Source of the DNA: a candidate division KSB1 bacterium
Lineage (GTDB): Bacteria; Zhuqueibacterota; Zhuqueibacteria; JANLFK01; Oleimicrobiaceae
Assembly (NCBI GenBank): GCA_024655945.1
Contig: JANLFK010000009.1
Span: forward strand, 1-64,000
Length of the DNA stretch: 64,000 nt
Reading direction: 5' to 3'
Shown: positions 4,813 through 25,403 of the stretch, piece by piece
Position numbering within the stretch: the first letter of the stretch is position 1
Layout of the letters: the number at the start of each line of letters is the position of its first letter
The notes under the pieces: model-generated
The model's input: the letters and a program-made list of their open reading frames with translations, nothing else
Databases searched by the model: none
What the model was told of the DNA's origin: nothing
Program-made: the position numbers and the translations under genes

Positions 4813-4864
4813 GGGGAGAAGAGTCAACCTCCGCGACAGTGGGAGAAATGTGGAGTGGCATGCA

Positions 4865-7800
4865 ATGAGAATGGTGCACCGCTGTGTGCGTAATGCTGCG
4901 GTCGGCCTCGTGCTGATGACTCTGCCAAGTCTCGTCGGGGCAGGCACCACCGGCAAGATCGCAGGCATGGTTCTGGACGCCGAGACCGGCGAGCCCCTGC
5001 CTGGGGCAAACATCACCTTGGAAGGGACCACAATGGGGGCCGCCACCGACGGCACCGGGCGGTACGTGGTGCTCTTTGTGCCGCCTGGCACTTATACCTT
5101 GCGCGCCAGCATGATAGGCTACTCGCCGATGCGCGTGGAGAACGTGCGCGTCTCCATCGATCTGACCACAGAGATCAACTTCAAGCTGCGGAGCACGGTT
5201 CTGGAATTAGGCGAGGCGGTCACGGTGGTAGCCGAGCGGCCCATGGTGGTCAAGGACTTGACCGCGAGCACGGCCGTCATGGGATCTGAGGAGATCAAGG
5301 CCCTGCCGGTGACCGAGGTGCACGAGGCGTTGGCGCTGACTGCCGGGTTGGTGCGCGATGCCGGCGGCGGGCTGCACATCCGCGGCGGCCGCTCCGGCGA
5401 GATAAGCTACTGGATCGACGGCATCCCGGTCACTGACGTCTACGACGGGGGCACGGTCGTTGACGTGAACAAGAACATGGTGCAAGAGCTGCAGGTGGTA
5501 AGCGGGGCCTTCAATGCTGAGTACGGACAGGCCATGTCGGGGATTGTCAACATCTCCACCAAGGAAGGTGGGAATACGTTTGGCGGCTCCTTTACCACCT
5601 ACCTTGGCGATCACCTGAGCACGCACGACAATATCTTTCCGCACATCAAGAACATCAACCCGGTGGCCATTCGCAACGTGGAGGGCAGCTTGGAAGGGCC
5701 CATATGGCGCGACAAACTCTCCTACTTTGTGAACGCGCGCTACATCTACTTTGACGGCTGGCTGTTCGGACAGCGCCGCTACCGGCCGCATGCGGTGACC
5801 GCCAGTGTCGTCCTGCCGGAGCAGGTGGTGGAGCAGGTGTTCCCAGAGTTTTTGGAGGAAAGCAGGGTGGTGGGACCTGGCCAGCGGGGCTTCCAGTACG
5901 TCCTGGGCACGAATGTCCTGCTGGACTCGGTCCTGACGCAGAATGAGCTCCGCGCGCGCAACATCAGTGCCGACTCGTTTGCGGTCTATTACCAGAAGCT
6001 GCGTGCCTCCCACCAGGGTGCGCGCGGCGATGGCGCCTTTGTGCCCATGAACTGGAACCGCAAACTCTACTTGCAGGGCAAGCTCATGTACAAACCGGTG
6101 CCCTGGCTGCAGCTGGCGTACAATGTGATCCTGGACGATGTCGACTACCAGGACTATCAGCGCGATTACAAGTGCAACCCCGACGGTCAGTTGCAGCGGT
6201 TTAGAACAGGACTGACCAACATCGTCAAGGTCACCCATCTCGTCTCCTCGAAAACTTTTTATACGCTCGGCCTCTCGCAGTTCAGCAAGGCGTACAAGAG
6301 CTGGACCTACGAAGACCCCCATGACCCGCGCTATGTCCATCCCGACATCGGTTTGCAAGGGGCCTACAGCTTCAAGACGGGTGGCACCGACAACGCGCGC
6401 TTCGAGCGGCGGACGGATACCTACTTAGCAAAATTCGATCTCACCAGCCAGGTGACCGCCACCCACCAGCTCAAAGGGGGGCTCGAATTCCGCAAGCACA
6501 AGGTCTACCAGCGAGACGTGACCCTGCAACCGGTTCTCACGCAGTCAGCCATCGATCCGCTCTTCGAGAGTCCTTTCATCGCCACCCGCGTTCTGCCTGA
6601 TTCGACTATCTACGCCAGCCAGTACACGCATCGCCCCACCGAGTTTTCCGCCTATCTGCAGGACAAGATGGAGTTCAAGAACTTTATCGTCAACGTGGGC
6701 GTGCGCATGGACTACTTCGAGCCGGATGGCGTGGTGCTGACTGATGAGACCGACCCGACCATCTACAATCCCATCAAGCCGCAGAACCGCTATCACGACT
6801 GGGGGAGCGATGGCCGGCCAGGAACGCACGACTTGGACGGCACCGAGGGGAACGGCATCTGGGACGCCGGCGAGCCGGCCGTCACGCTGGCGGAGCGGCA
6901 GCAGTATTGGTACAAGAAGGCCAGCGCCAAGGTGCAGGTGAGCCCAAGGCTCGGAGTGTCTTTCCCTATCACGGACAGGGGTGTGATTCACTTCTCCTAC
7001 GGGCATTTTTTCCAGATTCCCCGGTTCGAGCGCTTGTACCAGAACCCGGATTTTGAGTTGGGAACCGGCACAGGGAACCTGGGGGTGATCGGCAACGCCG
7101 ACCTGAAGCCTGAGCAGACGGTGAGCGGCGAGATCGGCCTGCAGCAGCAACTGACCGAGGACCTGTCGCTGCATGTGACCGGCTACTTCCGCGACGTCCG
7201 CAATTTGGCCGGGACCCAGGCCCAAGAGATTGTGCTGTTCGGCGGGTTTGGGCGGTATAGCAAGCTGGTCAACAGCGACTTTGGCTTCATTAGAGGCATC
7301 ATCGTGTCGCTGAACAAGCGTTTCTCGGGTGGCCTGGCCGCCTCGCTGGACTACACCATGCAGATTGCCAAGGGGACCAACTCCGACCCGGAGCAGGCAC
7401 GCAACGCCCTGAGCGGCGGTGCATTGCCGGAGGTACAGCTCACCCCATTGGACTGGGATCAGCGGCACACCTTGAATGGCACGGTCTCATATGCTGGGCG
7501 AGGGTACGGGGCAAGCCTCATCGGGCAACTGGGGAGCGGCCTGCCCTACACGCCTCGCTCTACTGCCGACATCTCGACCCTGCTGACCAACAGCCAGCGC
7601 AAGCCGGGTAACCTGAACATCGACTTGCGAGCGTACAAGGAGTTCCGGCTGCGGCCCGGGGTGCTCACCCTGTTCGTGCGGGTGTTCAACGTTCTGGACA
7701 GGCTCAATGAAGTGAATGTTTACAACGACACCGGACGTGCGGGCTTTACCTATGACGAAGCGGTAGCCAGGTCAAGCAACCCTCTGCAGCTGGTGAACAC

Positions 7801-7891
7801 CCTGGAGGACTGGTTTACCAATCCCACGCATTATTCGGAACCCCGCAGGGTAGAGGTAGGGCTGACCTTCGACTTTGGCCAGGCGCGTTAG
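4865..7891 (+). CDS. TonB-dependent receptor, module 1 (SusC-like class)
   Basis: Outer-membrane active transporter of about 1,008 residues. I prefer ATG 4865 (GGAG 9 bases upstream) to GTG 4850. A signal peptide ends near LPSLVGAG. A carboxypeptidase-regulatory-like domain follows (about 25-105, GKIAGMVLDAETGEPLPGAN). Next are the plug (about 115-230, with LHIRGGRSGEISYWIDGIPV and AEYGQAMSGIVNISTKEGG) and a long beta-barrel to the C-terminus ending VGLTFDFGQAR. An acidic turn around nt 6798-6885 (GSDGRPGTHDLDGTEGNG) matches motifs in the next gene. It follows the LacI gene in the same direction, with no intervening promoter seen, and has a paralogue at 15889. A glycan substrate is inferred from the locus. 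Confidence 0.9.
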   Translation: MRMVHRCVRNAAVGLVLMTLPSLVGAGTTGKIAGMVLDAETGEPLPGANITLEGTTMGAATDGTGRYVVLFVPPGTYTLRASMIGYSPMRVENVRVSIDLTTEINFKLRSTVLELGEAVTVVAERPMVVKDLTASTAVMGSEEIKALPVTEVHEALALTAGLVRDAGGGLHIRGGRSGEISYWIDGIPVTDVYDGGTVVDVNKNMVQELQVVSGAFNAEYGQAMSGIVNISTKEGGNTFGGSFTTYLGDHLSTHDNIFPHIKNINPVAIRNVEGSLEGPIWRDKLSYFVNARYIYFDGWLFGQRRYRPHAVTASVVLPEQVVEQVFPEFLEESRVVGPGQRGFQYVLGTNVLLDSVLTQNELRARNISADSFAVYYQKLRASHQGARGDGAFVPMNWNRKLYLQGKLMYKPVPWLQLAYNVILDDVDYQDYQRDYKCNPDGQLQRFRTGLTNIVKVTHLVSSKTFYTLGLSQFSKAYKSWTYEDPHDPRYVHPDIGLQGAYSFKTGGTDNARFERRTDTYLAKFDLTSQVTATHQLKGGLEFRKHKVYQRDVTLQPVLTQSAIDPLFESPFIATRVLPDSTIYASQYTHRPTEFSAYLQDKMEFKNFIVNVGVRMDYFEPDGVVLTDETDPTIYNPIKPQNRYHDWGSDGRPGTHDLDGTEGNGIWDAGEPAVTLAERQQYWYKKASAKVQVSPRLGVSFPITDRGVIHFSYGHFFQIPRFERLYQNPDFELGTGTGNLGVIGNADLKPEQTVSGEIGLQQQLTEDLSLHVTGYFRDVRNLAGTQAQEIVLFGGFGRYSKLVNSDFGFIRGIIVSLNKRFSGGLAASLDYTMQIAKGTNSDPEQARNALSGGALPEVQLTPLDWDQRHTLNGTVSYAGRGYGASLIGQLGSGLPYTPRSTADISTLLTNSQRKPGNLNIDLRAYKEFRLRPGVLTLFVRVFNVLDRLNEVNVYNDTGRAGFTYDEAVARSSNPLQLVNTLEDWFTNPTHYSEPRRVEVGLTFDFGQAR

Positions 7892-7918
7892 GAAAGCGGT
7901 TTAGCGCGGAGAGTGATT

Positions 7919-10900
7919 ATGAGGAGCCGATTCGGCATAGTGGCAGCGCTGCTGGTGGTAGGAGCGCTGGCAATGGCGGACAGGGCGCAGGCGCAGAGCG
8001 GCCGTCAGTACCGTCGCGACGCGGTGATGCGCGGCAACCTGGTGAAGACGGTCTTTGGCAATTGGGGCGTCATCGGACAGCCGGCGCAAAGAGGGAAACG
8101 CGGGGCCTGGATCTACGACGACAACGGCTATATCGGTGACGTGAGCCCGTTGGTGGGCGCCGAGGTTGTTGCCCAGGGCAAGACGTTCCATTCGGTGGTC
8201 GTCTGTCCAGTGGACCGGCCCACCACGCAACACGAGCTATCGCCTTCCGGCACCTACTGGGGGTTCGAGCCGGTGGCCGGGTACTTCAACGAGTACTCGC
8301 AAGGTGTCGCGCTCTACAGCGACCCCCGCTCGTGGCCGCCGGTGTGGCCAGACAAAATGAATGACCCCTTCGACCCCGGCTGGCCAGGCTCGTGGAACGG
8401 TTTTTTTGGCAAGACAACCACGGCCTCGGAAGAGTGCTTCTTTGTGCTGGATGACCAGAACGACGAGGAGTTCAACGTCGCGCAGTACAACCGCTGGGGC
8501 GTGGCCTTCAAGCCGGACGCGCGCAACCCCAATCGCAACGGCCTGGGCCTGCAGGTGAAAGTGCGCGGCATGCAGTGGTCGGACTTTTTGGCCCAGGACT
8601 GTATCTTTTGGCTCTACGAGATTACCAACACCAGCACCACCGACTACAGCAAGGTCGTCTTCGGCATGTTGGTGGGCACTTATGTGGGCGTCACTTCAAC
8701 AGAAGATTATCGCGAATATGATGACGACTACTCGTTCTTCGATGTGGAGAAGGACCTCACCTACACGGCGGACTTTGATGATGATTGCAGCCGAAACCCA
8801 CGTTGGACCGGGCCGGTGGGAGTGGTCGGCTATGCTTTTCTCGAAAGCCCAGGCAACGGATACGACGGCATCGACAACGACGGTGACGCCGACCAGCATC
8901 CGTTCATCCCAGCCACTGGGCCGTTCTTTGTGCAGGCCGACTTTCAAAAGCGCGTCATCCGCGCGGGCGACAAGGTGGTGGTGATCGACGACGACTACCA
9001 TCGCACGGTGGTAACGGTACCCCCGCGCGATACCACCTTCGTCACACGCGGCGCCGCCAGAGGGGTGCCCTACCTGGTGCAGGTCAAGCCAGGCGTGACC
9101 GAGCTGGTGGAAGGCAATGTGGTCATCCAGGACGGCTTGGAGGTGGTCAACCCAAATGCCTACGATGGCATTGACAACGACCTCGATGGGCTGATCGACG
9201 AGAACTACTACCTACACTACTACCAGATTCGCAAGGATCGCACGGGCAAGGTGCTCATCGACCGCTTCAATCCGGTGCGGCACAAAGACTACATCACCGG
9301 CTTGGGCCTGAACGACCCCCTCATCGATGAGAAGCGGGACGATGGCATCGACAACGATGGCGATTGGAATGCCGAATATGACGATGTAGGAGCCGATGGG
9401 GTACCAGGCACTAACGATCCGGGCGAGGGCGATGGCCGGCCGACTCCTGGCGAGCCGAATTTCGACCAGACCGACGTGGATGAGTCTGACCAGATCGGCC
9501 TGACGAGCTTTGAGTACTTCACGCCTGCCCGTGCTTTCTCCATGGCTGACGACGAGGACCTCTGGCGGCGCCTGGCACCCGGCTATTTTGAAGTCCCCTC
9601 CTCGATCGTGAACAACAAACCGGAGCGGGGCGAAGACGGCGACTTTATCTACGGCTCCGGCTACTTCCCCCTGCGCGCGGGTGAGACGCAGCGTTTCTCA
9701 CTGGCGCTGGTCTACGGAGAGGGAGGCGGCCCGCAGGTGGACATCGCTGACCTGCTGAAGAACCGCGAGACGGTGCAAAAGATCTACAACAGCGACTACC
9801 GTTTTCCGCCGCCACCGGAGAAGCCCATGCTCACCGTGGTCCCAGGCGACGGGAAAGTCACCCTCTACTGGGACCGGCGCGCCGAAGAGTCCGTAGACCC
9901 GGTGCTAAAGGTGAAGGACTTTGAGGGGTACAAGATCTACCGCGCCACCGACCACAACTTCAACGAGGTGTTCGGCGTCACCGATGCGGACGGCCGACCC
10001 ATCCAGTACAAGCCCATTGCGCAGTTTGACCTGAAGAACGGCATCAAAGGCTACTTCCGCGGAAGTGCAGAGCTCTTCCAGCAGAGCCATGGCGCCTCCT
10101 TCTACCTGGGCAACGATACCGGCCTCGAGCACAGCTACGTGGACTATGACGTGGAAAACGGGCGGCGCTACTTCTACGCCGTGGTGGCCTACGACCGGGG
10201 CGATGAGACTTTAGACATCTTCCCGAAAGAGAACGACAAACGCATCGATGTGTTGCCCTCCGGTGAGGTGCGGACCTATCGCAACACGGCGGTGGCCATC
10301 CCCAATGCAGCGGTGGCAGGCTATGTTCCCCCGCAGGGGAGTATGCTGGTGCCGCCGCTGTCCAGCGTCGGTACTGGCAAGCTCTTCTACGTGGTCGTCG
10401 ACGAGCAGGCACAGACCGGGCACACCTACCGCGTTGAGTTCCTGGACACGGGGAACGACGGCGTCGACAACGATGGCGACTGGAATGCGCTCACCGATGA
10501 TGTGGGTTCCGACGGCAAGCCGAACACCGACGATCCCGATGGCACAGAGGGCAATGGGCTGCCTGACCCGGGCGAACCTAATGTCGACGCCCGGGACCCC
10601 GAAGAGTATTTCGTGCCCACCACCACCTTCTACTCGGTGCAGAAGGTGACTCCCGTGACGAGCACCTTTGTGGCGCGCGACACGTTCTCGGTGGCGTTGC
10701 CCAACACGCACCTTGTTGCCGGGACGATTGTGGTCAAGGACGGCAGCGGCAGGGAGGTCGCACCATCGAAGTACGAGCTGGACCTTGTACGCGGCCGCAT
10801 TCGTGGACGCCAGTCAGGCGACTTGCTTTATGGAGAAGCCTATTCTGTTACCTACCAGTACCATCCGGTCTATCGCAGCCCGTTCATCGAGGGCAGCCCG

Positions 10901-11782
10901 TGGGTCGGCGAGACCAAGGACACCGACATCTTCGACGGCGTGCGCTTAGCGTTCAACAATGATTGGAGGGTGAGGCTGGACACGCTCGCTTCCCGCTGGA
11001 GTCACCCGGAGAAGGGATACAACTTCAAGCTGACCATTGTCGACACCTACTTTGGGGTGGAGAGGCTCATGGGCTACTGGCACCCGGCGGACTACCGCAT
11101 CGAGTTCGCCGATGGGGTAATTGACACCTCGCTGGGTATCCCCAAGTATTACGTCGATCCCATCCCGGTGAACTTTAAGGTGTACAACCTCACCGATGGG
11201 CGCTACATCGACTTTGTGTTTGTCGACATGAACGGCGACGGCAAACTGACGCCCTTTGACGAGCTTATCCTTGTCGAAAACGGCCTGCAGGGGGAACAGC
11301 TGTACACTTACGACATCACCTTCACGAGCCGCACCGGCCAGGCTTTCGTCTACGGCGCCGGGGACACACTGACCATCGTGACCAGGAAGCCATTCCGGGC
11401 AGGAGATGTTTTCGAGTTCACCACGGAACGGCCCGAGCTGAGTGCTGAGCAGGCGGCGCGGGAGTTGGAACGGGTGAAGGTGGTGCCAAACCCGTACGTG
11501 GTCGCCACTGCCCATGAGCTTCCCTTGCCGCCGGCAGTGGTCAGTGGGCGCGGTGAGCGGAAGATGGACTTTATCCACTTGCCGGCGCGGGCCAAGGTGC
11601 ACATCTTCACCTCCCGTGGTGAGCACGTGGTCACGTTGGAGCACGACGGCAACATCCACGATGGGGCCGTGTCGTGGAATCTCAAGACCAAGGAGAACCT
11701 GGACGTAGCCGCGGGCATCTACTTTTACGTGGTCGAGTCCCCTGTTGGCAAAAAGACGGGCAAGATTGCGATTATCAAGTAG
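7919..11782 (+). CDS. Large secreted partner protein with FN3-like segment and VPNPY C-terminal domain, module 1
   Basis: About 1,287 residues. ATG 7919 is preferred to GTG 7913 because GGAGAG lies 5 bases upstream. A signal peptide ends near DRAQAQ. No lipobox is present. The N-terminal half shares blocks with the paralogue at 18404 (SDPRSWP, FFVLDDQNDEEF, FWLYEITNTS). DGIDNDGD-type acidic repeats occur near nt 8870, 9170, 9345 and 10460, resembling calcium-binding loops. An FN3-like segment lies around nt 9820-10210 (DGKVTLYWDRRAEESVDP). The C-terminus (VKVVPNPYVV to KKTGKIAIIK) resembles a T9SS-type sorting domain. It follows the receptor by 27 bases and precedes the PorV-like gene. I do not recognise a named family; a surface glycan-binding role replacing SusD is only a hypothesis. 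Confidence 0.7.
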   Translation: MRSRFGIVAALLVVGALAMADRAQAQSGRQYRRDAVMRGNLVKTVFGNWGVIGQPAQRGKRGAWIYDDNGYIGDVSPLVGAEVVAQGKTFHSVVVCPVDRPTTQHELSPSGTYWGFEPVAGYFNEYSQGVALYSDPRSWPPVWPDKMNDPFDPGWPGSWNGFFGKTTTASEECFFVLDDQNDEEFNVAQYNRWGVAFKPDARNPNRNGLGLQVKVRGMQWSDFLAQDCIFWLYEITNTSTTDYSKVVFGMLVGTYVGVTSTEDYREYDDDYSFFDVEKDLTYTADFDDDCSRNPRWTGPVGVVGYAFLESPGNGYDGIDNDGDADQHPFIPATGPFFVQADFQKRVIRAGDKVVVIDDDYHRTVVTVPPRDTTFVTRGAARGVPYLVQVKPGVTELVEGNVVIQDGLEVVNPNAYDGIDNDLDGLIDENYYLHYYQIRKDRTGKVLIDRFNPVRHKDYITGLGLNDPLIDEKRDDGIDNDGDWNAEYDDVGADGVPGTNDPGEGDGRPTPGEPNFDQTDVDESDQIGLTSFEYFTPARAFSMADDEDLWRRLAPGYFEVPSSIVNNKPERGEDGDFIYGSGYFPLRAGETQRFSLALVYGEGGGPQVDIADLLKNRETVQKIYNSDYRFPPPPEKPMLTVVPGDGKVTLYWDRRAEESVDPVLKVKDFEGYKIYRATDHNFNEVFGVTDADGRPIQYKPIAQFDLKNGIKGYFRGSAELFQQSHGASFYLGNDTGLEHSYVDYDVENGRRYFYAVVAYDRGDETLDIFPKENDKRIDVLPSGEVRTYRNTAVAIPNAAVAGYVPPQGSMLVPPLSSVGTGKLFYVVVDEQAQTGHTYRVEFLDTGNDGVDNDGDWNALTDDVGSDGKPNTDDPDGTEGNGLPDPGEPNVDARDPEEYFVPTTTFYSVQKVTPVTSTFVARDTFSVALPNTHLVAGTIVVKDGSGREVAPSKYELDLVRGRIRGRQSGDLLYGEAYSVTYQYHPVYRSPFIEGSPWVGETKDTDIFDGVRLAFNNDWRVRLDTLASRWSHPEKGYNFKLTIVDTYFGVERLMGYWHPADYRIEFADGVIDTSLGIPKYYVDPIPVNFKVYNLTDGRYIDFVFVDMNGDGKLTPFDELILVENGLQGEQLYTYDITFTSRTGQAFVYGAGDTLTIVTRKPFRAGDVFEFTTERPELSAEQAARELERVKVVPNPYVVATAHELPLPPAVVSGRGERKMDFIHLPARAKVHIFTSRGEHVVTLEHDGNIHDGAVSWNLKTKENLDVAAGIYFYVVESPVGKKTGKIAIIK

Positions 11783-11817
11783 CGCCCATTCACTCTGGTC
11801 ATAAGCAGGAGTGAACA

Positions 11818-12843
11818 ATGCGAGTGGCACGTAGTGCGTGGTTGATAGGCGTGGCAGCCCTGGCGTTGGCTGCGACAGGTACGACATGGGCCCAGACGAA
11901 AGTGGGGACCACTGCGGTGCCCTTCTTGGGCATCAGTGTGGGCCCGCGGGCGACCGGGATGGGTGGCGCCTTTGCCGCCGTGAGCAACGATGCGACAGGC
12001 CTGCACTACAACCCCGGCGCCCTTTCCCAAATGCCCAATTCGCAACTGGTGGTGGCGCACACCCGCTGGCTATTGGGCACCAACCTCAATTGGGTAGGCC
12101 TGAGCCTCAAGCTGGATGCCGACAATGCCATTGGCCTGAGCTTCACCCATCTCGACTACGGAGAGGAGGAGGTGACCACGGTCTACCTGCCGGAGGGGAC
12201 AGGCGAGCGCTGGGGGGCAACCGACATGGCTGCCGCACTGAGCTACTGCCGGAACCTCACCGATCGCTTTTCCATTGGCGGCAGCGTGAAGTACATCCAG
12301 CAGAAGCTGTGGAACGAAACGGCCAGCGCGCTCGCCTTGGATGTAGGGCTCCTGTTTGTCACGCAGTTCAAAGACCTCAGGCTGGGGATGAGCATCAGCA
12401 ACTTTGGCACGGATATGCGCCACGACGGCCGCGACCTCCTGCACAGGGTTGACCTGGACCCCGAGCACATCGGACACAACGAAACCATCGTGGGCAAGCT
12501 CAAGACCGAGAGTTGGCCTCTGCCGCTGTTTTTCCGCGTCGGTCTGGCCATGGACGTGCTTCGCCAACAGAACTACCGTCTCACCGTGGCGGCCGATGCC
12601 TTCAGGCCGAGCGACAACACCGAAACGGTGAACGTGGGCGCGGAGTTCGAGCTGTTCAGGCTGCTGACCGTGCGCGGCGGTTACAAATCCCTGTTCAGAA
12701 GCAGCAGCGAAGAGGGGTTGACTGCCGGCGTGGGGGTGCGCCTGGCGCTGGACCCAAGGCTGGCCTGGCAGTTTGACTACACCTTCGCGGACTTTGGGCT
12801 TTTTGAGCCGGTGCACATGGTTGGCGCCTCGGTCACCTTCTAA
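11818..12843 (+). CDS. PorV/UPF0164-like outer-membrane protein, module 1
   Basis: A 341-residue protein with a signal peptide ending at TTWAQT. The N-terminal block (VGPRATGMGGAFAAVSNDATGLHYNPGALSQ) is typical of the PorV/PorQ (UPF0164) family of FadL-like beta-barrels. The rest is alternating beta strands ending in an aromatic residue (GASVTF), as expected for an outer-membrane barrel. In T9SS bacteria PorV shuttles CTD cargo from the translocon to the attachment machinery. Placement between two genes for T9SS-tailed proteins fits a dedicated shuttle. The equivalent in module 2 is the same length. Confidence 0.8.
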   Translation: MRVARSAWLIGVAALALAATGTTWAQTKVGTTAVPFLGISVGPRATGMGGAFAAVSNDATGLHYNPGALSQMPNSQLVVAHTRWLLGTNLNWVGLSLKLDADNAIGLSFTHLDYGEEEVTTVYLPEGTGERWGATDMAAALSYCRNLTDRFSIGGSVKYIQQKLWNETASALALDVGLLFVTQFKDLRLGMSISNFGTDMRHDGRDLLHRVDLDPEHIGHNETIVGKLKTESWPLPLFFRVGLAMDVLRQQNYRLTVAADAFRPSDNTETVNVGAEFELFRLLTVRGGYKSLFRSSSEEGLTAGVGVRLALDPRLAWQFDYTFADFGLFEPVHMVGASVTF

Positions 12844-13073: not shown

Positions 13074-15608
13074 ATGACACGTAGCAGAACGCTTGCCTTG
13101 TTGGCGCTGGCGGTAGTGTTGCCGTTGGTGAGTGGTTGCTTCACCATTCTCAGCGTTGACCAGGTCACAACGGCCACCACTGGCTCCAAGATTGTGGCCA
13201 CCATCGAGGTGCGTACCGAGGGCACCGATGCCAATCCGCATCATGGCATCTTTGCGGTGTTGGTGCCCAACGACTGGACCGTTGACTCGGTGTACTATTC
13301 TGGCGACTTTGGTCCCGACTATGCGACCTATCTACCCGCAGATGTAGCTGACGGCGACCCGGGTGGCCAAGTGGACTACTGGGAGCCGGCTCTTGAGCAA
13401 AACTTCCCAAGCGGGCCGGATATGAAGTGGGTGGTTTACCAGGGGAACAACGCCTATCCGTCGAACCTGGACACCGGGTATGTCGACGTGACGGTGGAAA
13501 TGACCGTCGGCAGGAGCTCTGGTAACTTCAACATTGGCTACTTCGTCACCAATGCGGCGCTTGACTTTTCCGACCGCAGCTACTATGACATCAAGCTGGA
13601 TAACCCCATCCGGGTGACAAGCGGCGGCCCTGTGCGTGTCACTTTTGTGGCGAACACGGCGACGGTGCCGGACACGTTGGGGCCGAGCTCGACGGTGCAG
13701 GTGCGAGGCAGTGGTGGGCCGTTGACGTGGAGTGGGGCATCGCCGGTGTTTTTGCAGAATGTGGGTGGCGACTACTGGAAGGGGACGGCGGAGTTCACTC
13801 CTGGGGAGCGGGTGGAGTTTAAGTTTTACACCAATGCGCACGACACGGTGTATGGGGGAGCGGAGTGGGAGCACCAGGGTTGGGAGGGGGATGTGGCGAC
13901 CGGCAATCGGGTGTTGGTGGTGGGGGATGCGGACACGACCTTGCCGTTGCAGTTTGTGAATGGCTGGTTGTGGGGTGCGGAGCAGTATGCGCGGCCGTGG
14001 GTAGAGGAGCCGAACAGTTTTGTGGTATGGGTGCGGGTGAATGTGCAGGGGTGGGAGGATTTCAACCCGGCGGCGCAGGTGATAGGGTTGCGGGGTTCGA
14101 ACAATGTGGATTGGGGTCAGACGGGTGAGATTTCGTGGGGGCGGACGTATCCGTTGGTGCGGGAGAGCGACCATGTGAACATGGGTTCTCGGCAGTACAG
14201 TGGGGGGTATTTCTACAGTGGTGCGGTGCATGTGCCGGATCAGTATGCGGGGCATGGGATAGAGTTCAAGGTGGTGGTGCACCGTGCGGGTGCGGCGTTG
14301 GATGAGGATTGGGGCAATTTGGTGTACAATCCGAGTTTGCAGAATCACGTGGACTTGAGTGGGGTGGACACGACGGTGCACTGGTTTTGGTTTGACAACA
14401 AGCGGCCGCGCGCGGTGGAGCATCGGGATCAGGTGGTGGTGACGTGGGTAGCGGATTTGGGGCAGGCGATTGCGAATTTTGGTTTTGCGCATGGGGACAC
14501 GTTGTTGGTGCGCTCGGGGTATTTTGGCACGGCGGCGGGGGTGCGCACGGTGCAGATGCGGCGGCTTGGGTTTACCTCGCGCTACACGGCCACCGACACG
14601 GTGGTGGCCACGATAGGGGGGAAGTTGGACTACCAGTACTACAAGGTGAAGAAGGGGATAGAGTATCGTGAGATTTACTATAACTTTTACTATGCTGGGG
14701 AGACGGTGGGGGAGGCGGAGCGGCGGGTGGTGGATCCGATAGGGGGGGCGGTCATCACGGTGGAGGATGTGGTGGCCAGCAAGTCGGACATACACCGGAT
14801 GCCGTTGTTCCGGAACACGGCGGTGGTGGCGCGGCCGGTGACGGTGACGTTCACCTGTGATGCGCGGCCTGCGGTGTACCAGGTGTTGGCGGGGAGCACG
14901 TTGCGGGACATTCAGGGGACCTTGCATGTGACCTCAGCCGATCAGGTGGTGGCGTGGGGTTTGGCGATGAACGGGCCGGCCACGGGAGACTGGGGTACCT
15001 GGGGTGCGGGCTTGATGGCGGATCCGGCGCACCGCATGTACGATGACGGCACGCATGGTGACCTGGTGGCGGGGGACACGGTGTACACGTTGGTGTGCTT
15101 TTACTCGCCTGATTCGAACGATGTGGTGGGTCAGGAGTTCAAGTTTGGGGTAGGGGGAGGCGACAATGAGGGTGGTTATGGGAACAACCACATCGAGAAC
15201 ATCGACGACAGTGTGCCGGCTTCCATGGTTGCGTCGCAGTTTGGCAGCATTGATCCGGTGTTTTACAGTGCGTGGGATTATGACAATCAGCGGCCGAGGA
15301 CGGGGGTGGAGGTGGTGAGTCGGGAGGTGCCGAGGGAGTATCGGTTGGGCAACTACCCGAACCCGTTCAATCCGGAGACGGAGGTGCGGTACGAGGTGGC
15401 ACGGGCGGGGCGCGTGCGGGTGGAGGTGTACAACCTGCTTGGGGTGCGGATAGCGCGTTTGGTGGATGAGGAGCAGATGCCCGGGACCTACCGTGTGCGG
15501 TGGGACGGCCGCGATGAGCTGGGACGCCAGGTGGTTTCCGGGGTGTATGTGTGTCGGCTGGTGGCTGGTGAGGTGGTGAAGACGGCCAAGATGGTGTTGG
15601 TGCGCTAA
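13074..15608 (+). CDS. Surface lipoprotein with starch-binding-like repeats and T9SS domain, module 1
   Basis: About 844 residues from ATG 13074, which has GAGGTGG upstream. The signal peptide ends in a lipobox, LVSGC, giving a lipid-anchored Cys. Residues from about 20 to 185 (SVDQVTTATTGSKIVATIEV) look like the DUF4961-type domain found near SusCD operons. From codon VRVTF at nt 13632 to the stop, the protein is the shared duplicated module: a CBM-like beta domain (VQVRGSGGPLTWSG, FKFYTNAHDTVYGG), further beta domains, and a T9SS sorting domain (YPNPFNPETEV to KMVLVR). A lipobox together with a T9SS tail is odd. A SusE/F-like glycan-binding role is inferred from context. A terminator-like hairpin follows. 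Confidence 0.75.
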   Translation: MTRSRTLALLALAVVLPLVSGCFTILSVDQVTTATTGSKIVATIEVRTEGTDANPHHGIFAVLVPNDWTVDSVYYSGDFGPDYATYLPADVADGDPGGQVDYWEPALEQNFPSGPDMKWVVYQGNNAYPSNLDTGYVDVTVEMTVGRSSGNFNIGYFVTNAALDFSDRSYYDIKLDNPIRVTSGGPVRVTFVANTATVPDTLGPSSTVQVRGSGGPLTWSGASPVFLQNVGGDYWKGTAEFTPGERVEFKFYTNAHDTVYGGAEWEHQGWEGDVATGNRVLVVGDADTTLPLQFVNGWLWGAEQYARPWVEEPNSFVVWVRVNVQGWEDFNPAAQVIGLRGSNNVDWGQTGEISWGRTYPLVRESDHVNMGSRQYSGGYFYSGAVHVPDQYAGHGIEFKVVVHRAGAALDEDWGNLVYNPSLQNHVDLSGVDTTVHWFWFDNKRPRAVEHRDQVVVTWVADLGQAIANFGFAHGDTLLVRSGYFGTAAGVRTVQMRRLGFTSRYTATDTVVATIGGKLDYQYYKVKKGIEYREIYYNFYYAGETVGEAERRVVDPIGGAVITVEDVVASKSDIHRMPLFRNTAVVARPVTVTFTCDARPAVYQVLAGSTLRDIQGTLHVTSADQVVAWGLAMNGPATGDWGTWGAGLMADPAHRMYDDGTHGDLVAGDTVYTLVCFYSPDSNDVVGQEFKFGVGGGDNEGGYGNNHIENIDDSVPASMVASQFGSIDPVFYSAWDYDNQRPRTGVEVVSREVPREYRLGNYPNPFNPETEVRYEVARAGRVRVEVYNLLGVRIARLVDEEQMPGTYRVRWDGRDELGRQVVSGVYVCRLVAGEVVKTAKMVLVR

Positions 15609-15672
15609 GGGGCCGCTGCTCACCAGCAACGCATGAAGACCCGAGGGGAGAAGGCCCATGGCTTTCTCCCCT
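13632..15672 (+). repeat. Long direct repeat, copy 1 (2,041 bp)
   Basis: Matches 23331-25371 at a constant offset of 9,699 bases. It runs from GTGCGTGTCACT through the stop codon and the following hairpin. In the line-by-line reading I saw one substitution (GCC versus ACC, Ala/Thr near the C-terminus). Sequences outside both ends are unrelated. Confidence 0.95.
15645..15671 (+). terminator. Strong hairpin after module 1
   Basis: GGGGAGAAGGCC and GGCTTTCTCCCC form a 12-bp stem (one G-T pair) around the loop CAT. No T-run follows, so it may stabilise the mRNA 3' end or act with Rho rather than terminate alone. It lies inside the repeated segment. Confidence 0.6.
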
Positions 15673-15888: not shown

Positions 15889-18354
15889 ATGAGGGTGCGG
15901 AGGCGTTTGCTGTGTGTCCTGTGCTTGGCGATAGCCTCGCAGCTCCTGGCCGGCACGACGGGAAAGGTCACCGGCGTGGTGAGGGACAAGGCCAGCGGCT
16001 TGCCCCTTGCGGGCGCAAGCGTGCTCGTCGAAGGAACCATGCTGGGCGCGGCCACTGGTTCAGATGGCACCTTCTTCATCATCAACGTGCCGCCAGGGAG
16101 CTATTCGCTGACCGCGCAGATGATGGGCTACAGCCGCACCACCGTCGCTGGGGTGCGGGTAAACGCCGATCTCACGACCAGGGTTGACTTTGCGCTGCCG
16201 GAGACCACCATAACTCTGCCGGAGGTCGTGGTCACGGCGGAGAGGCCTTTCATCCAGAGGGATGTGACCAGCAGCATCGCGGTGGTTGACCAGGAACGCA
16301 TAGACGCCCTGCCGGTGCAGAGCTTCACCGAGGTGCTGGCCACGCAAGCCGGAGTAATCGCCCGAGGAAGTAGCCTCCACATTCGCGGTGGGCGCGGCAA
16401 CGAGGTCGGGTACCTGGTCGACGGCATGTATGTGGAAGATCCGCTGTTCGGGGGTCTGGGTACCAGGGTCAACAACGACGCCATCAAGGAGCTCACCCTT
16501 CTGAGCGGCACCTTCAGCGCAGAGTACGGGGACGCACTGAGCGGCATTGTCAACATCGTCACCAGGGAGGGCTCTGATGTTGTTTCCGGCAGTATAGAGA
16601 CGCGAACGAGCCAGTTCGGGATAGCCCCTTATCATGACTACGGCGAGTGGCGTACCAACGGCTACGTGAGCGGCCCGCTGCTGAAGAGCAAGCTCTCCTA
16701 TTTTCTTTCCGGCGAACAGAATCAGCGAGACAGCTGGTTGCCTTTTGGCTATCGGCGAGAGGCAACGGGCTTTGCCAAGCTGACAGCGCGCCCGGCCCCT
16801 TGGCTGAAAGTCGCCATAAGCGGTCGCTACAGCGAGACCAAGAGCCAGCCGTACAACCACCTCTGGAAATACATCCCTGAACAGTACACCCGCACGCGGT
16901 CACATAGTCGACAGGCCATCTTGTCTTTGACACATTCGGTCTCTGCCCGGATGTTCTACGATGTGCGGCTGTCGGTGTTCAGTCAAGACTACTACAGCGG
17001 GGTTGACAAGGACACCTCGGAGTATGTGCCTCCTGCAGTGCGGCAGTATGTGCCGTGGGCTGGCAACGGCTACGAGTTCTACAGCAAGGCGGATCCCTTG
17101 CAGCTCACCAAGAGCAAGACGCACACCCTCGACCTGAAGAGCGATTTCGTGTGGCAGATCGGCCAGCGCAACGAGCTAAAGTCGGGCTTCGAGGTCAAGC
17201 AACACCATCTCCGCCTATTCGACATCTATGACCCCACCAGGGATTTTCCGTACATCAACGACTACAATCAGAAACCGCTGGAGGGCTCGGCGTACCTGCA
17301 GGACAAGATCGAGTACCCCTACCTGACGGTGAACATCGGCCTGCGTTTTGACTATGCCAATGCGCGCACCAAGTTCCGCGCTAGCCCGTTAGACCCTGCC
17401 AGCGAGCAGAAGGTCAAGCCCAAATGGCAGCTCAGTCCGCGTATCGGCATCGCTCATCCGGTGAGCGAGCGCACCAAACTACACTTTGCCTATGGGCACT
17501 TTTTCCAGAATCCGGAATACCAGTACTTCTACGAAAACCGGCAATACGATTTGAACGTGCGTGAGCCTCTCTTCGGGCAGCCGGACCTTGATGCCGAAAA
17601 GACGGTGGCCTACGAGACCGGGCTCGCCCACCAGTTCAGCAATGCGTTGGCCGCCCACGTGACCGCCTATTACAAGGACGTGACCGGACTGATTGGCACG
17701 CACTACTACATGCCCTACTTCTCCGGCAGATATGTGGGATACACGCTGTACGTGAACGAGGATTACGCGAACATCAAGGGTTTTGAGGTCAATGTGGAGT
17801 ACCGGCCAAAGCCGGCAGTGCAAGGCTCGTTGACTTACACCTACTCGGTGGCCAAAGGGAGTGCCTCTTCCGAGACAGAGCAATATCCTGGCACGCAGGA
17901 ATCCACGCTGCTCTACTTTTTGGACTTTGACAAGACACACGTGCTCAATGCCTCTCTCAGTGCCCGCTTTGGTACAGGAGAGGGCCCAGAACTCCTGGGG
18001 GTCTACCCCTTGGCCCATACTGATTGGAGTTTCATGCTGAGCGCCAGCAGCGGTTTCCCTTACACGCCTTCCGGGCGCGATGTGGGTTTCGTGATCAGGA
18101 ATTCGGCGCGCATGCCCTCCAACTACACGCTGGACTGCGAGGTCGGGCGAACGTTTCCCCTGATGGGCGTGAAGGTGCGGCTCTTTGTCGAGACGCTAAA
18201 CCTGACCAACTTCAAGAACGTCGTCTACGTCTATCCTGATACCGGAGAACCGGATTTTACGCGCCAGGGAAATCATTCCCTGGAATATATGCGCGACCCA
18301 AGCAACTATGGGCCACCGCGCCGCCTGCGTATCGGACTTGGCGTGCGGTTGTGA
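15889..18354 (+). CDS. TonB-dependent receptor, module 2 (SusC-like class)
   Basis: About 821 residues. ATG 15889 is chosen because TGGAGGA lies just upstream; an earlier TTG at 15850 has no such site. The signal peptide ends near ASQLLAGTTG. A carboxypeptidase-regulatory-like domain (GKVTGVVRDKASGLPLAGAS), a plug (LHIRGGRGNEVGYLVDGMYV, AEYGDALSGIVNIVTREG) and a barrel follow. It shares the plug layout and the barrel motif YGHFFQNPEYQYFYEN with the module 1 receptor (YGHFFQIPRFERLYQN). It lacks that receptor's acidic GSDG...GEP insertion and is about 190 residues shorter, suggesting a different ligand size. Its own promoter lies 85 bases upstream. Confidence 0.9.
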   Translation: MRVRRRLLCVLCLAIASQLLAGTTGKVTGVVRDKASGLPLAGASVLVEGTMLGAATGSDGTFFIINVPPGSYSLTAQMMGYSRTTVAGVRVNADLTTRVDFALPETTITLPEVVVTAERPFIQRDVTSSIAVVDQERIDALPVQSFTEVLATQAGVIARGSSLHIRGGRGNEVGYLVDGMYVEDPLFGGLGTRVNNDAIKELTLLSGTFSAEYGDALSGIVNIVTREGSDVVSGSIETRTSQFGIAPYHDYGEWRTNGYVSGPLLKSKLSYFLSGEQNQRDSWLPFGYRREATGFAKLTARPAPWLKVAISGRYSETKSQPYNHLWKYIPEQYTRTRSHSRQAILSLTHSVSARMFYDVRLSVFSQDYYSGVDKDTSEYVPPAVRQYVPWAGNGYEFYSKADPLQLTKSKTHTLDLKSDFVWQIGQRNELKSGFEVKQHHLRLFDIYDPTRDFPYINDYNQKPLEGSAYLQDKIEYPYLTVNIGLRFDYANARTKFRASPLDPASEQKVKPKWQLSPRIGIAHPVSERTKLHFAYGHFFQNPEYQYFYENRQYDLNVREPLFGQPDLDAEKTVAYETGLAHQFSNALAAHVTAYYKDVTGLIGTHYYMPYFSGRYVGYTLYVNEDYANIKGFEVNVEYRPKPAVQGSLTYTYSVAKGSASSETEQYPGTQESTLLYFLDFDKTHVLNASLSARFGTGEGPELLGVYPLAHTDWSFMLSASSGFPYTPSGRDVGFVIRNSARMPSNYTLDCEVGRTFPLMGVKVRLFVETLNLTNFKNVVYVYPDTGEPDFTRQGNHSLEYMRDPSNYGPPRRLRIGLGVRL

Positions 18355-18403
18355 GGTCGCATTGGGTGCGTCAGCAGTGGCTCGGCCTACGAGGAACCAT
18401 GCC

Positions 18404-21202
18404 ATGCGAAGAACCCTTCTCTTTGTTCTGCTTTCGATCTTGGTGAGTGCCTCGCTTGCTGGGGCGCAACAGCTTTCCGGAGGGAAAGACAAAGACAGGG
18501 AAGCTGCAAACGACTTGGCAAAGCCTTTGGGTATCAAGGATCGGGCTGCCGGCATTCACAACGCCAGCAACATCGGCCTGTTTTTCGAGAACCGAGGCAA
18601 GCTCTACCCAAGGCGGTTGAGCCAGGGTCCCAGCGGCGAGTACCCCTACGGCAGCGGACGGCACTACATCTACCGCATCAACCCGTTCGTCGGTATTCCT
18701 GGCAATGTGATTCAAGGACGCTTCACCACCAACGAGGAGTGGGAAGCCGTAGGTGGCTACCATAACCCGGCGTTCGCAAAAGTGGCGATGAGCGACGACC
18801 CATCGTCGTGGCCGGCGACAGGTTGGCCGGTGCGGGACGCCGCCGGCAACCCCATCATCAAGTCTGACCAGGACGCTTTCTGTGTCTACAGTGACAGCAA
18901 TAACACGGTGAAGCGGCTCGGGGTACATATCGCCCAGACCAGCTACGCCTTCGGTCTGAAGTCCTTAGAGGACATGATCTTTTTTGCTTTTGACGTAATC
19001 AACAAGGGCGAATCTGACTTAGATTCGCTCTATTTCGCCCTCTATGTGGACATCGACGTCGGCAACGTCTCTGGCGGCGACCCGGAGTACGCAGACGACC
19101 ACGTGGCCTTTGAGGAGTCGTTGAACCTGCTTTACTTCTACGACGATGGCTACACCTCGGAATGGGTGGGCAATACTACCGGCTACTTCGGCTGCGCCTT
19201 CTTGAAGACTCCGGTGGTGGATGGGAAGCAGCTGGGAGTGACCGATTGGCACTACAACCTCTATGATGATGACATGGACCTGGACACGGTACAGTACCGT
19301 ATCATGAGCTCGGATCCGCGGCTGTTTAGTTCTCCATTGGGCAACCGGTATTTCCACGTGGGCAACCTGCCGACCTTGCACTACGACGATCCAAACACAA
19401 TTCCCGCCAGTGGGCTGGACGTCGTCGCCACCATGAGTTCTGGGCCGTACACGCTCAAGGTGGGAGATACGCTCACCTTCATGACGGCCATCGTCGCCGG
19501 GAAAGATCTGGGGCAGCTGCTCTCCAATACGCTCATGGCGCTGAAAGCGGCAGAACTCAATTTCGAGATGGCAAAGCCCCCTTCGCCGCCCGCGCTTACT
19601 GCCGTTGCTGGCGATGGCCGCGTGACGCTCTACTGGGACAATCGGCCGGAAAGCGAGCGGGATCCGTTTTCCAACCGGCTCGATTTTCAGGGCTATCGGC
19701 TCTACAAGTCCATCGACGGCGGGGTGCATTGGGACCAGATCGACCGCAACGAGAACCCCAATGTAGGCCCCGACCCCGTACCTCTCGCTGAGTTTGATGT
19801 GATAGACGGTATCGGGCTCGACACGGGCCTGCAGTACAGCTACGTGGACACCAACGTCGTCAACGGTTTCGAGTATTGGTACACGATCACCAGCTATGAC
19901 CAGGGCGACTCCACGGTGGAGAGCCTGGAATCGCCGCGGGGCAACACCTTGGCGGCCATCAACACGGTGGCGGCCACGCCGCGCAGCGAGCCTTTGGACC
20001 TGGTACCAGGCGCTGTGGGCTCGATAGAGCACGCTGGGCCTTCGGACTTTTTCCTGGCGGTGAGCTTGGCAGATGCGCGGCAATGTGGCGGATTTCAGTA
20101 TGAGGTGAGCTTCCCCCCGGTGGCGAGAATTGTCAGGGGCAATCTCAATACGCAGGCCTTGGTGACCGTGGTGGATGCAGCGCTCGTTTCCGGCGACGTT
20201 TACGGCGTTACCTTTGACGATGCAGGGCGGCTCCGTATACGCAACCAGACGCAGGGGCGCGATGTTATCGTGGGACATGCCTATGTCTCCGGGGAGACTG
20301 TCCAGTTCGAAGGCCTGGCCTTGACCCTTGTTGACCCGGATCCGGACGCACCGCCCACGCTGGTGCCGGAGCCGGGGGACTCGTTGGTCATTCAGACGGG
20401 TATCCGCGCCCAGCGTTCGGATGGAACGGAGGTACTCTCGCCCCGCATCGTGGAGTGGAAGCGCTGGCTGGCCACCACGGATGGCCTGCTCCTGCAAGTC
20501 ATTCCCTCGGGGTACTTCGACCCCGTAGCCCGCGTCAGTGGAGCCGCCATGGTGGAGCTCACCCCGACAGTGGTGGACAAGTCGAAGATCATCGAGATGA
20601 TTTACACCCTGAGCTTTGCCGATCCGGTGACGAGTGCGGGTGGCAAGCAGCGTGCGGTCCTTCAGGTGACCAACTGGAGCGGGCAGGTTGTGGCGCGGAG
20701 TGATTCGCTGCCCAGCGGAGGGAGCGTGGCCTTCGGAGGAATCGCTGTGCGCATCGTCTTTGACGAAAAGAGTGCACCGGGGGCAGGCAATGTCTTCCGC
20801 ATTCGCACAAACATTCCCGATCCACCGCGCGCCAGCGACCGCTACACGTTTGCGGTGCAGGCGCCTTCGACTGGAGGCCGGCTGCGCGACGAGGACCTGG
20901 CGAAGGTCAAAGTGGTGCCCAATCCCTACGTGGTTTCGTCGCTATTTGAACCAGAGTTTGGCGAGCTGCGGCGCGAGCCCCTTCGCCAGATCCAGTTCAT
21001 TCACCTGCCCGCAGAGTGTACCATCCATGTCTTTACCCTGGATGGCGATTTGATCAAGACGATCCACCACACCAACGGCACTGGGACGGAGAGCTGGGAT
21101 CTACGGGCTGAGGGGGGACGAGAACTGAGTTCCGGTGTGTACCTGTACATGGTGAGCACCAAGACGGCACGGCATGTCAGCCGTTTCGCGGTGATAAAGT
21201 AG
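18404..21202 (+). CDS. Large secreted partner protein with FN3-like segment and VPNPY C-terminal domain, module 2
   Basis: About 932 residues from ATG 18404, with GAGGAA 7 bases upstream. The signal peptide ends near SLAGAQQ. It is a paralogue of the protein at 7919. Shared blocks are SDDPSSWP, the acidic DQDAFCVYSDSNN segment, MIFFAFDVINKGESDLDSLYF, and the FN3-like part (DGRVTLYWDNRPESERDPF, nt about 19610-19920). The C-terminus (VKVVPNPYVV to SRFAVIK) resembles a T9SS-type sorting domain. It lacks most of the DGIDNDGD acidic repeats, which explains the shorter length. The catalytic role, if any, is unknown. Genetic linkage to the receptor and PorV-like gene suggests a surface partner of the receptor. 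Confidence 0.7.
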   Translation: MRRTLLFVLLSILVSASLAGAQQLSGGKDKDREAANDLAKPLGIKDRAAGIHNASNIGLFFENRGKLYPRRLSQGPSGEYPYGSGRHYIYRINPFVGIPGNVIQGRFTTNEEWEAVGGYHNPAFAKVAMSDDPSSWPATGWPVRDAAGNPIIKSDQDAFCVYSDSNNTVKRLGVHIAQTSYAFGLKSLEDMIFFAFDVINKGESDLDSLYFALYVDIDVGNVSGGDPEYADDHVAFEESLNLLYFYDDGYTSEWVGNTTGYFGCAFLKTPVVDGKQLGVTDWHYNLYDDDMDLDTVQYRIMSSDPRLFSSPLGNRYFHVGNLPTLHYDDPNTIPASGLDVVATMSSGPYTLKVGDTLTFMTAIVAGKDLGQLLSNTLMALKAAELNFEMAKPPSPPALTAVAGDGRVTLYWDNRPESERDPFSNRLDFQGYRLYKSIDGGVHWDQIDRNENPNVGPDPVPLAEFDVIDGIGLDTGLQYSYVDTNVVNGFEYWYTITSYDQGDSTVESLESPRGNTLAAINTVAATPRSEPLDLVPGAVGSIEHAGPSDFFLAVSLADARQCGGFQYEVSFPPVARIVRGNLNTQALVTVVDAALVSGDVYGVTFDDAGRLRIRNQTQGRDVIVGHAYVSGETVQFEGLALTLVDPDPDAPPTLVPEPGDSLVIQTGIRAQRSDGTEVLSPRIVEWKRWLATTDGLLLQVIPSGYFDPVARVSGAAMVELTPTVVDKSKIIEMIYTLSFADPVTSAGGKQRAVLQVTNWSGQVVARSDSLPSGGSVAFGGIAVRIVFDEKSAPGAGNVFRIRTNIPDPPRASDRYTFAVQAPSTGGRLRDEDLAKVKVVPNPYVVSSLFEPEFGELRREPLRQIQFIHLPAECTIHVFTLDGDLIKTIHHTNGTGTESWDLRAEGGRELSSGVYLYMVSTKTARHVSRFAVIK

Positions 21203-21217
21203 ACAACAGAGGAGTTC

Positions 21218-22243
21218 ATGCGCATGCAGAGGACTCTTACCCTATTTGCGGCGGTGAGCGTTGCGGCAATGCTCGCGCTCGCCCTGCCTGGCCCCGCGCA
21301 GGCCCAGAATCCTAATTTGGGCACCGCTGGGGCGCAGTTTCTGCAGATTCCGGTCGGAGCACAGGCGGTGGGCATGGCAGGGGCTTACCTGGGGATGGCC
21401 GAGGACGCTGTGGCCCTGTTCTGGAATCCGGCGGGCATCACCTACGTGGAGCGGCAGGCGGTCCACTTCTCGCACCTGCAGTGGTTCGCAACCGTCCACA
21501 TGACCTCTGTGGCCTATGTGCTCAACCTTGAGCGCTGGGGAGTCTTTGGTGTCTCCGCAAACTCCTTAGGCATGGACAAGATGGAGGTGACCACCGAGCT
21601 GCAGCCAGAAGGGAGCGGCGAGTTCTGGGATGCGCAGGACGTCTCGTTGGGGGTGACGTACGCCCGCGGATTGACCGACCGCATGTCGGTGGGCGTGACC
21701 GCCAAGTACGTGCGCCAGAGGATCTGGCACGAGAGCGCCAGCGGCGTGGCCTTCGATGTGGGTACGCAGTACCGGCTGGACTTCCGCCAGCTGGTTATCG
21801 CCATGGCTATGACGAACTTTGGCGCCGACCTGCGCTTGGATGGTCGCGACCTCGATGTGGTCCACGACCGCAATGTCTCGATCCCTCGCAACCGCCTCAC
21901 CCCGGCACGGCTCCAGACAGAGACCTATCCGTTGCCGTTGCACTTTCAGGTGGGCATTGCCTTCGATGTGTACCGTTCGCCTTTCCTGGCCTTGCGGGCA
22001 GCCGTGGATGCGGCACACCCGAACGACAACAACGAGCGGATCAATCTCGGTGCGGAGCTGGCCCTGCGGCAGGTCGCCTTCCTGCGGGCGGGGTATCGCT
22101 ACAACTACGATGAGGAGGACTGGACGCTGGGGGCGGGAGTGCGACTACCCTTGGCGCGCTCGCGGGTGCGCGTGGACTATGCCTACTCGTTTTTCAACCT
22201 TCTGGATGACGTGCAGAGGTTCTCCCTGGGGATAGAGTTCTGA
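21218..22243 (+). CDS. PorV/UPF0164-like outer-membrane protein, module 2
   Basis: A 341-residue protein starting at ATG 21218 after GAGGAG, 15 bases past the previous stop. The signal peptide ends at GPAQAQ. The family block VGAQAVGMAGAYLGMAEDAVALFWNPAGI is clear, as is the second motif LTDRMSVGVTAKYVRQRIWHESASGVAFDVG, parallel to the module 1 copy. The C-terminus ends in Phe (RFSLGIEF), as in outer-membrane barrels. The likely role is a T9SS cargo shuttle or a related surface-export function. Two such genes in 10 kb, each beside T9SS-tailed partners, argue for dedicated pairs. Confidence 0.8.
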   Translation: MRMQRTLTLFAAVSVAAMLALALPGPAQAQNPNLGTAGAQFLQIPVGAQAVGMAGAYLGMAEDAVALFWNPAGITYVERQAVHFSHLQWFATVHMTSVAYVLNLERWGVFGVSANSLGMDKMEVTTELQPEGSGEFWDAQDVSLGVTYARGLTDRMSVGVTAKYVRQRIWHESASGVAFDVGTQYRLDFRQLVIAMAMTNFGADLRLDGRDLDVVHDRNVSIPRNRLTPARLQTETYPLPLHFQVGIAFDVYRSPFLALRAAVDAAHPNDNNERINLGAELALRQVAFLRAGYRYNYDEEDWTLGAGVRLPLARSRVRVDYAYSFFNLLDDVQRFSLGIEF

Positions 22244-25307: not shown

Positions 25308-25371
25308 GGGGCCGCTGCTCACCAGCAACGCATGAAGACCCGAGGGGAGAAGGCCCATGGCTTTCTCCCCT
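23331..25371 (+). repeat. Long direct repeat, copy 2 (2,041 bp)
   Basis: Partner of 13632-15672. Codon use inside the repeat favours G at third positions (GTG, TTG, GGG, CGG), unlike the C-favouring genes around it. Identity stops sharply at CCCCT, after which the amylase region begins. Confidence 0.95.
25344..25370 (+). terminator. Strong hairpin after module 2
   Basis: Exact copy of the hairpin at 15645-15671, carried by the long repeat. An ATG at 25332 just before it is therefore unlikely to start the amylase. Confidence 0.55.
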
Positions 25372-25403
25372 CTTGGTCATGCGGCGAACGAAAGGGCGGG
25401 CTG

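Follow-up and report, generated by a model that had tools for sequence, protein, structure and literature searches.

How do two genes that begin with unrelated sequences come to end in the same 2,041 bp? The question is raised by genes A and B of a KSB1-like bacterium, which lie in a stretch of 64,000 nucleotides (hereafter the window) that, judged from its gene content, holds a putative starch-type (alpha-glucan) uptake locus. The features discussed below are collected in Table 1.

Table 1. Coordinates (window numbering) of the two receptor modules, their A and B genes and the block shared by these genes
Feature	Position	Strand	Remarks
R1, TonB-dependent receptor, module 1	4850-7891	+	
U1, large putative T9SS cargo, module 1	7913-11782	+	weak CHU_C match
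V1, PorV/PorQ-family protein, module 1	11818-12843	+	NF033709, 197.7 bits
Gene A	13074-15608	+	lipobox-bearing DUF4961 N-terminus, body, T9SS tail
NtA, N-terminus of A, DUF4961 (PF16328)	13074-13631	+	Pfam E 6.9e-19
Shared block, copy 1	13632-15672	+	658 codons of body with stop codon and hairpin, 3' part of gene A
CBM20-like domain at body start	13632-13964, also 23331-23663	+	fold and weak Pfam match
T9SS type A sorting tail / FlgD_ig	15354-15605, also 25053-25304	+	TIGR04183
Hairpin	15644-15672, also 25343-25371	+	13-bp stem at repeat end
R2, TonB-dependent receptor, module 2	15889-18354	+	
U2, large putative T9SS cargo, module 2	18308-21202	+	weak T9SS tail match
V2, PorV/PorQ-family protein, module 2	21218-22243	+	NF033709, 218.2 bits
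Gene B	22479-25307	+	signal peptide, supersandwich N-terminus, same body, T9SS tail
NtB, N-terminus of B	22479-23330	+	mutarotase-like supersandwich fold, predicted
Shared block, copy 2	23331-25371	+	3' part of gene B, same components as copy 1
Alpha-amylase-family protein with T9SS tail	25332-28472	+	listed ORF begins inside repeat

The shared block and the genes that carry it

The original prediction, a 2,041-bp segment with one difference and a constant offset of 9,699, was borne out by base-by-base comparison: 2,040 of the 2,041 bp are the same at that offset, and the sole mismatch (G at 15585, A at 25284) falls on the first base of an Ala/Thr codon near the C-terminus. Its predicted content, the C-terminal ~660 codons with the stop codon and a hairpin, also held. 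The body comprises 658 codons and the block edges are exact, as the adjoining outside bases are already unlike on both sides and the final base of the 13-bp-stem hairpin is also the final base of the block. Counting synonymous differences and looking for more copies had been suggested along with the prediction; the count is zero among the 658 common codons, and a search of the genome (3.94 Mb in 26 contigs, 97.7% complete) returned these two copies and no third, the remaining matches being short T9SS-tail stretches. The copies are direct repeats 9.7 kb apart, and no 25-mer is repeated beyond the block anywhere in the 64-kb window, which also contains no tRNA and no Rfam family at gathering score. 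The hairpin was considered as a genome-wide repeat element and rejected, since in the whole genome it is present at two places only, the two block copies.

As predicted, one binding/sorting body is joined to two unrelated N-termini: DUF4961 in A and a predicted supersandwich in B, each followed by the CBM20-containing body and a T9SS tail, with no mutual similarity detected between the two front ends. For A, the mechanical open reading frame runs from 13002, and we took the ATG at 13074 as the start because it is compatible with the sister species, G002. The NtB model (AlphaFold pLDDT 83) matches GH94 enzymes in Foldseek (1.4e-7), and hhalign (E 8e-5) shows a distant relationship of NtB with the N-terminal portion of U2; a PDB sequence search with the NtB alignment gave nothing significant. 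We also note that gene A combines an N-terminal lipobox (VSGC; ISGC in G002) with its C-terminal sorting tail, and from these motifs it appears to join two alternative surface-anchoring routes in one protein.

In the body itself, a putative array for alpha-glucan binding is followed by a sorting tail for type IX secretion. The first domain of the body superimposes on the glucoamylase starch-binding domain 2vn4 with Z 11.6 and an rmsd of 2.0 over 94 residues (28% identity), and its match to Pfam CBM_20 (E 7e-4, 19.8 bits) lies below the curated cut-off of 23.3; Foldseek with the whole body returns mostly Ig-like matches at low TM-score and is interpretable for domain 1 alone. The last ~80 residues of A and B score 26.3 and 28.3 bits against TIGR04183 (cut-off 23), and two components of the T9SS machinery are found elsewhere in the genome: PorU at 891 bits and SprA, likewise at 891 bits, with neighbours in frame. 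The dN/dS of the body is ~0.09, which places it under purifying selection. From fold and neighbouring genes, A and B are most likely two cell-surface glucan-binding proteins with the same binding face, one for each receptor module.

The two modules, R1-U1-V1-A and R2-U2-V2-B, are of the same type, with a LacI regulator upstream and, on their 3' side, the amylase, an esterase, a sodium:solute symporter, a sugar-binding protein with two permeases, and a GH31 enzyme. Their genes had been described as clearly diverged, and they are indeed paralogues, with protein identities of 38% for V1/V2, 29-43% for R1/R2 and 25-34% for U1/U2; at the DNA level there is hardly any similarity. R1 and R2 score 75 and 95 bits against the SusC subfamily TIGR04056, below its cut-off of 368, and no module gene has a Pfam or NCBIfam match to SusD. 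The combination of receptor, large T9SS-tailed protein and PorV/PorQ-family protein (4850-12843 and 15889-22243) turns up together in many genomes of the class. An uptake locus seems in each case to carry its own PorV/PorQ-like protein, without a recognisable SusD, and such units may represent a distinct type of uptake system. Literature searches found no papers on KSB1 uptake loci. U1 further contains three spaced repeats (8852-8895, 9329-9372 and 10445-10488; 61-84% identical in DNA) with a DGIDNDGD-like motif, whose sequence resembles that of calcium-binding repeats.

A second near-identical pair in a sister species

The genus is represented by three genomes, that of the window (G000), G001 and G002. 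Of the G002 contigs, C76 runs through R1-U1-V1 and the N-terminus of A to a point 110 bp into the block, where it ends; these 110 bp show no difference from the B copy of the same genome and 13 differences from G000. Contig C33 starts within the end of copy A, runs on into R2 and holds a complete B, and its first 172 bp differ at one position from its own B copy (3' untranslated) and by ~19% from G000. Copies A and B of G002 therefore show one difference in 282 assembled bp, over which they differ from G000 by 12-19%; these 282 bp are what is assembled of copy A, and we infer its middle from the lack of any second contig with a body.

The junction in A of G002 lies at the same base as in G000, and the gene order is also the same. 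Flanking dS between the two species is 1.3-2.5 (0.93 for the symporter farther downstream), and because G002 has the same fusions and junction at such distances, the two fusions predate the species split. An old duplication combined with a near-identical pair within each species implies homogenisation by gene conversion in each lineage: in both G000 and G002, the two paralogous copies resemble each other more closely than orthologous copies of the two species do. The limit of homogenisation is sharp, with identity stopping at the junction to the unrelated N-termini. The body as a whole differs by 9.4% between G000 and G002, and the higher divergence of the block ends (12-19%) compared with the interior (~8%) fits conversion tracts. 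The pattern is seen in two of the three same-genus genomes, the contigs of G001 stopping in U1 and inside body B and so not covering its A copy. In our judgement, the shared parts of A and B thus very probably go back to an old duplication of one C-terminal module, whose copies recurrent gene conversion has kept identical. The original prediction had offered recent copying or gene conversion as explanations; the sister-species pair and the near-saturated flanks speak for the second and against the first.

With regard to mechanism, homologous recombination of the RecA type, acting between the direct repeats, would overwrite one copy with the other, and conversion tracts would end where the unrelated flanks start. 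That the copies stay identical may reflect nothing more than passive conversion of direct repeats lying close together; dosage or the spread of good alleles, both proposed for other cases (PMC4632066, PMC6053082), is another possible reason.

Three other readings of the repeat were weighed against recurrent conversion. Deletion or amplification is physically expected of 2 kb of identity in direct orientation around an intact receptor module, and the repeats could accordingly act as a switch, with recombination excising the 9.7-kb module 2 or raising its copy number; however, each of the three same-genus assemblies contains parts of module 2, and no rearranged form was seen among them, making this role improbable. 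Even less probable is a recent segmental duplication in this strain alone, without long-term homogenisation. Near-perfect identity on its own does appear recent, yet the shared junction, the near-identical pair of G002 and the flanking dS would then call for independent duplications to the same base, which is implausible. Finally, a ~2-kb exact repeat is difficult for short reads, and the genome is in 26 contigs, but there is very little to suggest a single real copy placed twice or a chimeric join, given that the copies differ by a distinguishing base and that the independent G002 assembly is interrupted at either end of the A block and has a copy-specific base of its own. In the latter genome the overlap is exact for 127 bp and is followed by that copy-specific base, consistent with a short-read assembly broken at a real two-copy repeat.

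Low divergence of the body between species

Conversion within genomes leaves a second feature of the block to be considered, the low divergence of the body between G000 and G002. The dS of this pair is 0.36 in the body, against 1.86 in NtA and 1.32 in NtB. Relative to the distance between G000 and G001, the distance between G000 and G002 is 1.25 times as large in the body (1.06-1.54), compared with 5.7 in U2 (4.0-7.5), 4.6 in V2 (3.1-7.6) and 2.9 in NtB (1.9-4.3); the ratio of body to flank is ~0.59-0.75 for G000-G001 and 0.13-0.26 for G000-G002. These comparisons use one continuous contig per genome in the three genomes, and flank dS near saturation is probably underestimated, which makes the contrast between body and flanks conservative.

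Pairs of genomes with a single body copy served as controls. Between G048 and G049, dS is 0.32 in the body, 0.34 in V1 and 0.41 in U1; between G011 and G027, it is 0.48 in the body, 0.42 in R2 and 0.51 in U2. Single-copy bodies thus have no deficit, indicating that the anomaly tracks the duplication rather than the sequence itself. GC-biased conversion is not supported as a cause, since GC3 of the body is not above that of the flanks.

The likeliest reason for the low divergence would be recombination between lineages that is confined to the block. We are less confident here than for conversion within genomes: incoming DNA of a related species would recombine within the block and then spread to both copies. 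That the duplicated module behind its unlike front ends forms an island of inter-species recombination is accordingly put forward as a tentative reading, at somewhat less than even chances.

In plastid inverted repeats, copy correction is associated with slower evolution. The same process, in place of inter-species exchange, could lower the divergence of the body, and the deficit is indeed present only where the body is duplicated; however, a constant slowdown predicts an equal factor in both comparisons, where ratios of 0.59-0.75 and 0.13-0.26 are seen, and the GC3 of the body is not raised. We consider slower evolution by copy correction unlikely. Constraint on synonymous sites (RNA structure, an overlapping gene or codon usage), to which the long antisense open frames across the block might point, has next to no credibility, as dS falls at the junction inside one gene (NtA to body), single-copy bodies have no deficit, and R1 has similar antisense frames yet normal dS.

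Origin of the arrangement and its known counterparts

In related families, the parts of A and B occur as separate genes. A body gene follows V1 in six genomes of four families, as judged by synteny, and in five of the six (G005, G022, G044, G048 and G049) the body comes directly after a signal peptide, G029 having another front domain. The G044 order, LacI-R1-U1-V1-body-amylase-symporter, is that of G000 minus the DUF4961 part and module 2. Five genomes from three families encode NtB as a gene by itself, which has a T9SS tail of its own and precedes R2-U2-V2 on the same strand; NtB adjoins R2 in G009, G018 and G051 and is separated from it by one gene in G011 and by a ~1-kb gap in G027. DUF4961 with a tail is likewise a separate gene in G009.

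The order in the window, body-R2-U2-V2-NtB-body, is a circular permutation of NtB-R2-U2-V2 between direct repeats. This is the product expected of a single crossover by which a circular or tandemly repeated donor entered the 3' part of the body gene. We propose that module 2, ancestrally NtB-R2-U2-V2, entered the 3' end of the module 1 body gene in this way, after which the body would be common to both N-termini; such an entry would explain the permuted order of module 2. A simpler rearrangement that merely moved NtB to last place is a possible alternative. The T9SS tails could have provided the first homology for the proposed crossover: a single degenerate 20-bp pattern for their YPNPFNP core has 31 matches across the genome.

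Several observations in other genomes concern the same parts. A 1,240-residue open frame in G061 (C7:18464-21796; L160/L169) contains two tandem bodies with 90% mutual identity; here the module has been duplicated independently, within one gene. In G022 and G030, both genomes of another genus, contigs break within the body gene (ends of G022:C27, G022:C26 and G030:C352; L173, L174, L175). The breaks lie downstream of residue 197 and ahead of ~516-523, with the part in between absent, and there too this may point to a repeat or to variability of the middle part. In G009 and G029 (L051, L056) the body is fused to a front end that by eye resembles a lamin-tail domain, a third unrelated partner. 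Module 2 of G009 and G011 (L053, L055) lies beside genes that, again by eye, resemble those for an M20-type peptidase, an RpiR-like regulator and a YfcC-like permease, neighbours from which the original substrate of module 2 may perhaps not have been starch.

In the Sus loci of Bacteroidota, a TonB receptor is accompanied by surface proteins with starch-binding domains (SusE and SusF). The locus described here resembles them in its TonB receptors, its predicted starch-binding-domain proteins and the adjoining amylase, GH31 and sugar transport genes, and differs in that no SusD was recognised, the binding proteins have T9SS tails, and each module has a PorV/PorQ-family protein. Likewise, domain 1 has the fold of CBM20, as its similarity to glucoamylase indicates, although its Pfam score is under the family cut-off and it sits in a non-catalytic multi-domain array.

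The closest precedent for the block is the pair mtrA-1/mtrA-2 of methanogens, neighbouring paralogues in which one domain is homogenised by gene conversion whereas the other part, derived from domain shuffling and fusion, stays unrelated, an arrangement kept between species (PMC4632066). The present case likewise has one homogenised domain beside an unrelated part; unlike mtrA, the block is a surface binding and secretion module and not a subunit of an enzyme complex, its identity is nearly total and reaches past the stop codon, it is unusually alike between species, and it is documented in two species of one genus only. A survey of long-lasting concerted evolution in prokaryotes reported 26 genes, all full-length, and left cases involving part of a gene to future work (PMC6053082). 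As with those genes, the paralogues here are closer than the orthologues, synonymous sites included, and synteny excludes independent duplication, but homogenisation is confined to a module.

The block is thus a new case of a known phenomenon, domain-limited concerted evolution. With mtrA as the one well-described prokaryotic domain-limited case found in the literature, it adds another, in predicted surface glucan-binding proteins of an uncultured phylum. Separate parental genes in related families allow the steps of fusion, insertion and homogenisation to be ordered, and the duplication-linked deficit in dS, together with the single-copy controls, makes exchange and copy correction testable against each other. 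If exchange between species is indeed the cause, homology limited to the block and two targets per genome would let alleles of the binding module move among related species and then spread to both copies while their neighbours diverge, and the module would evolve at the level of the genus rather than of the species.
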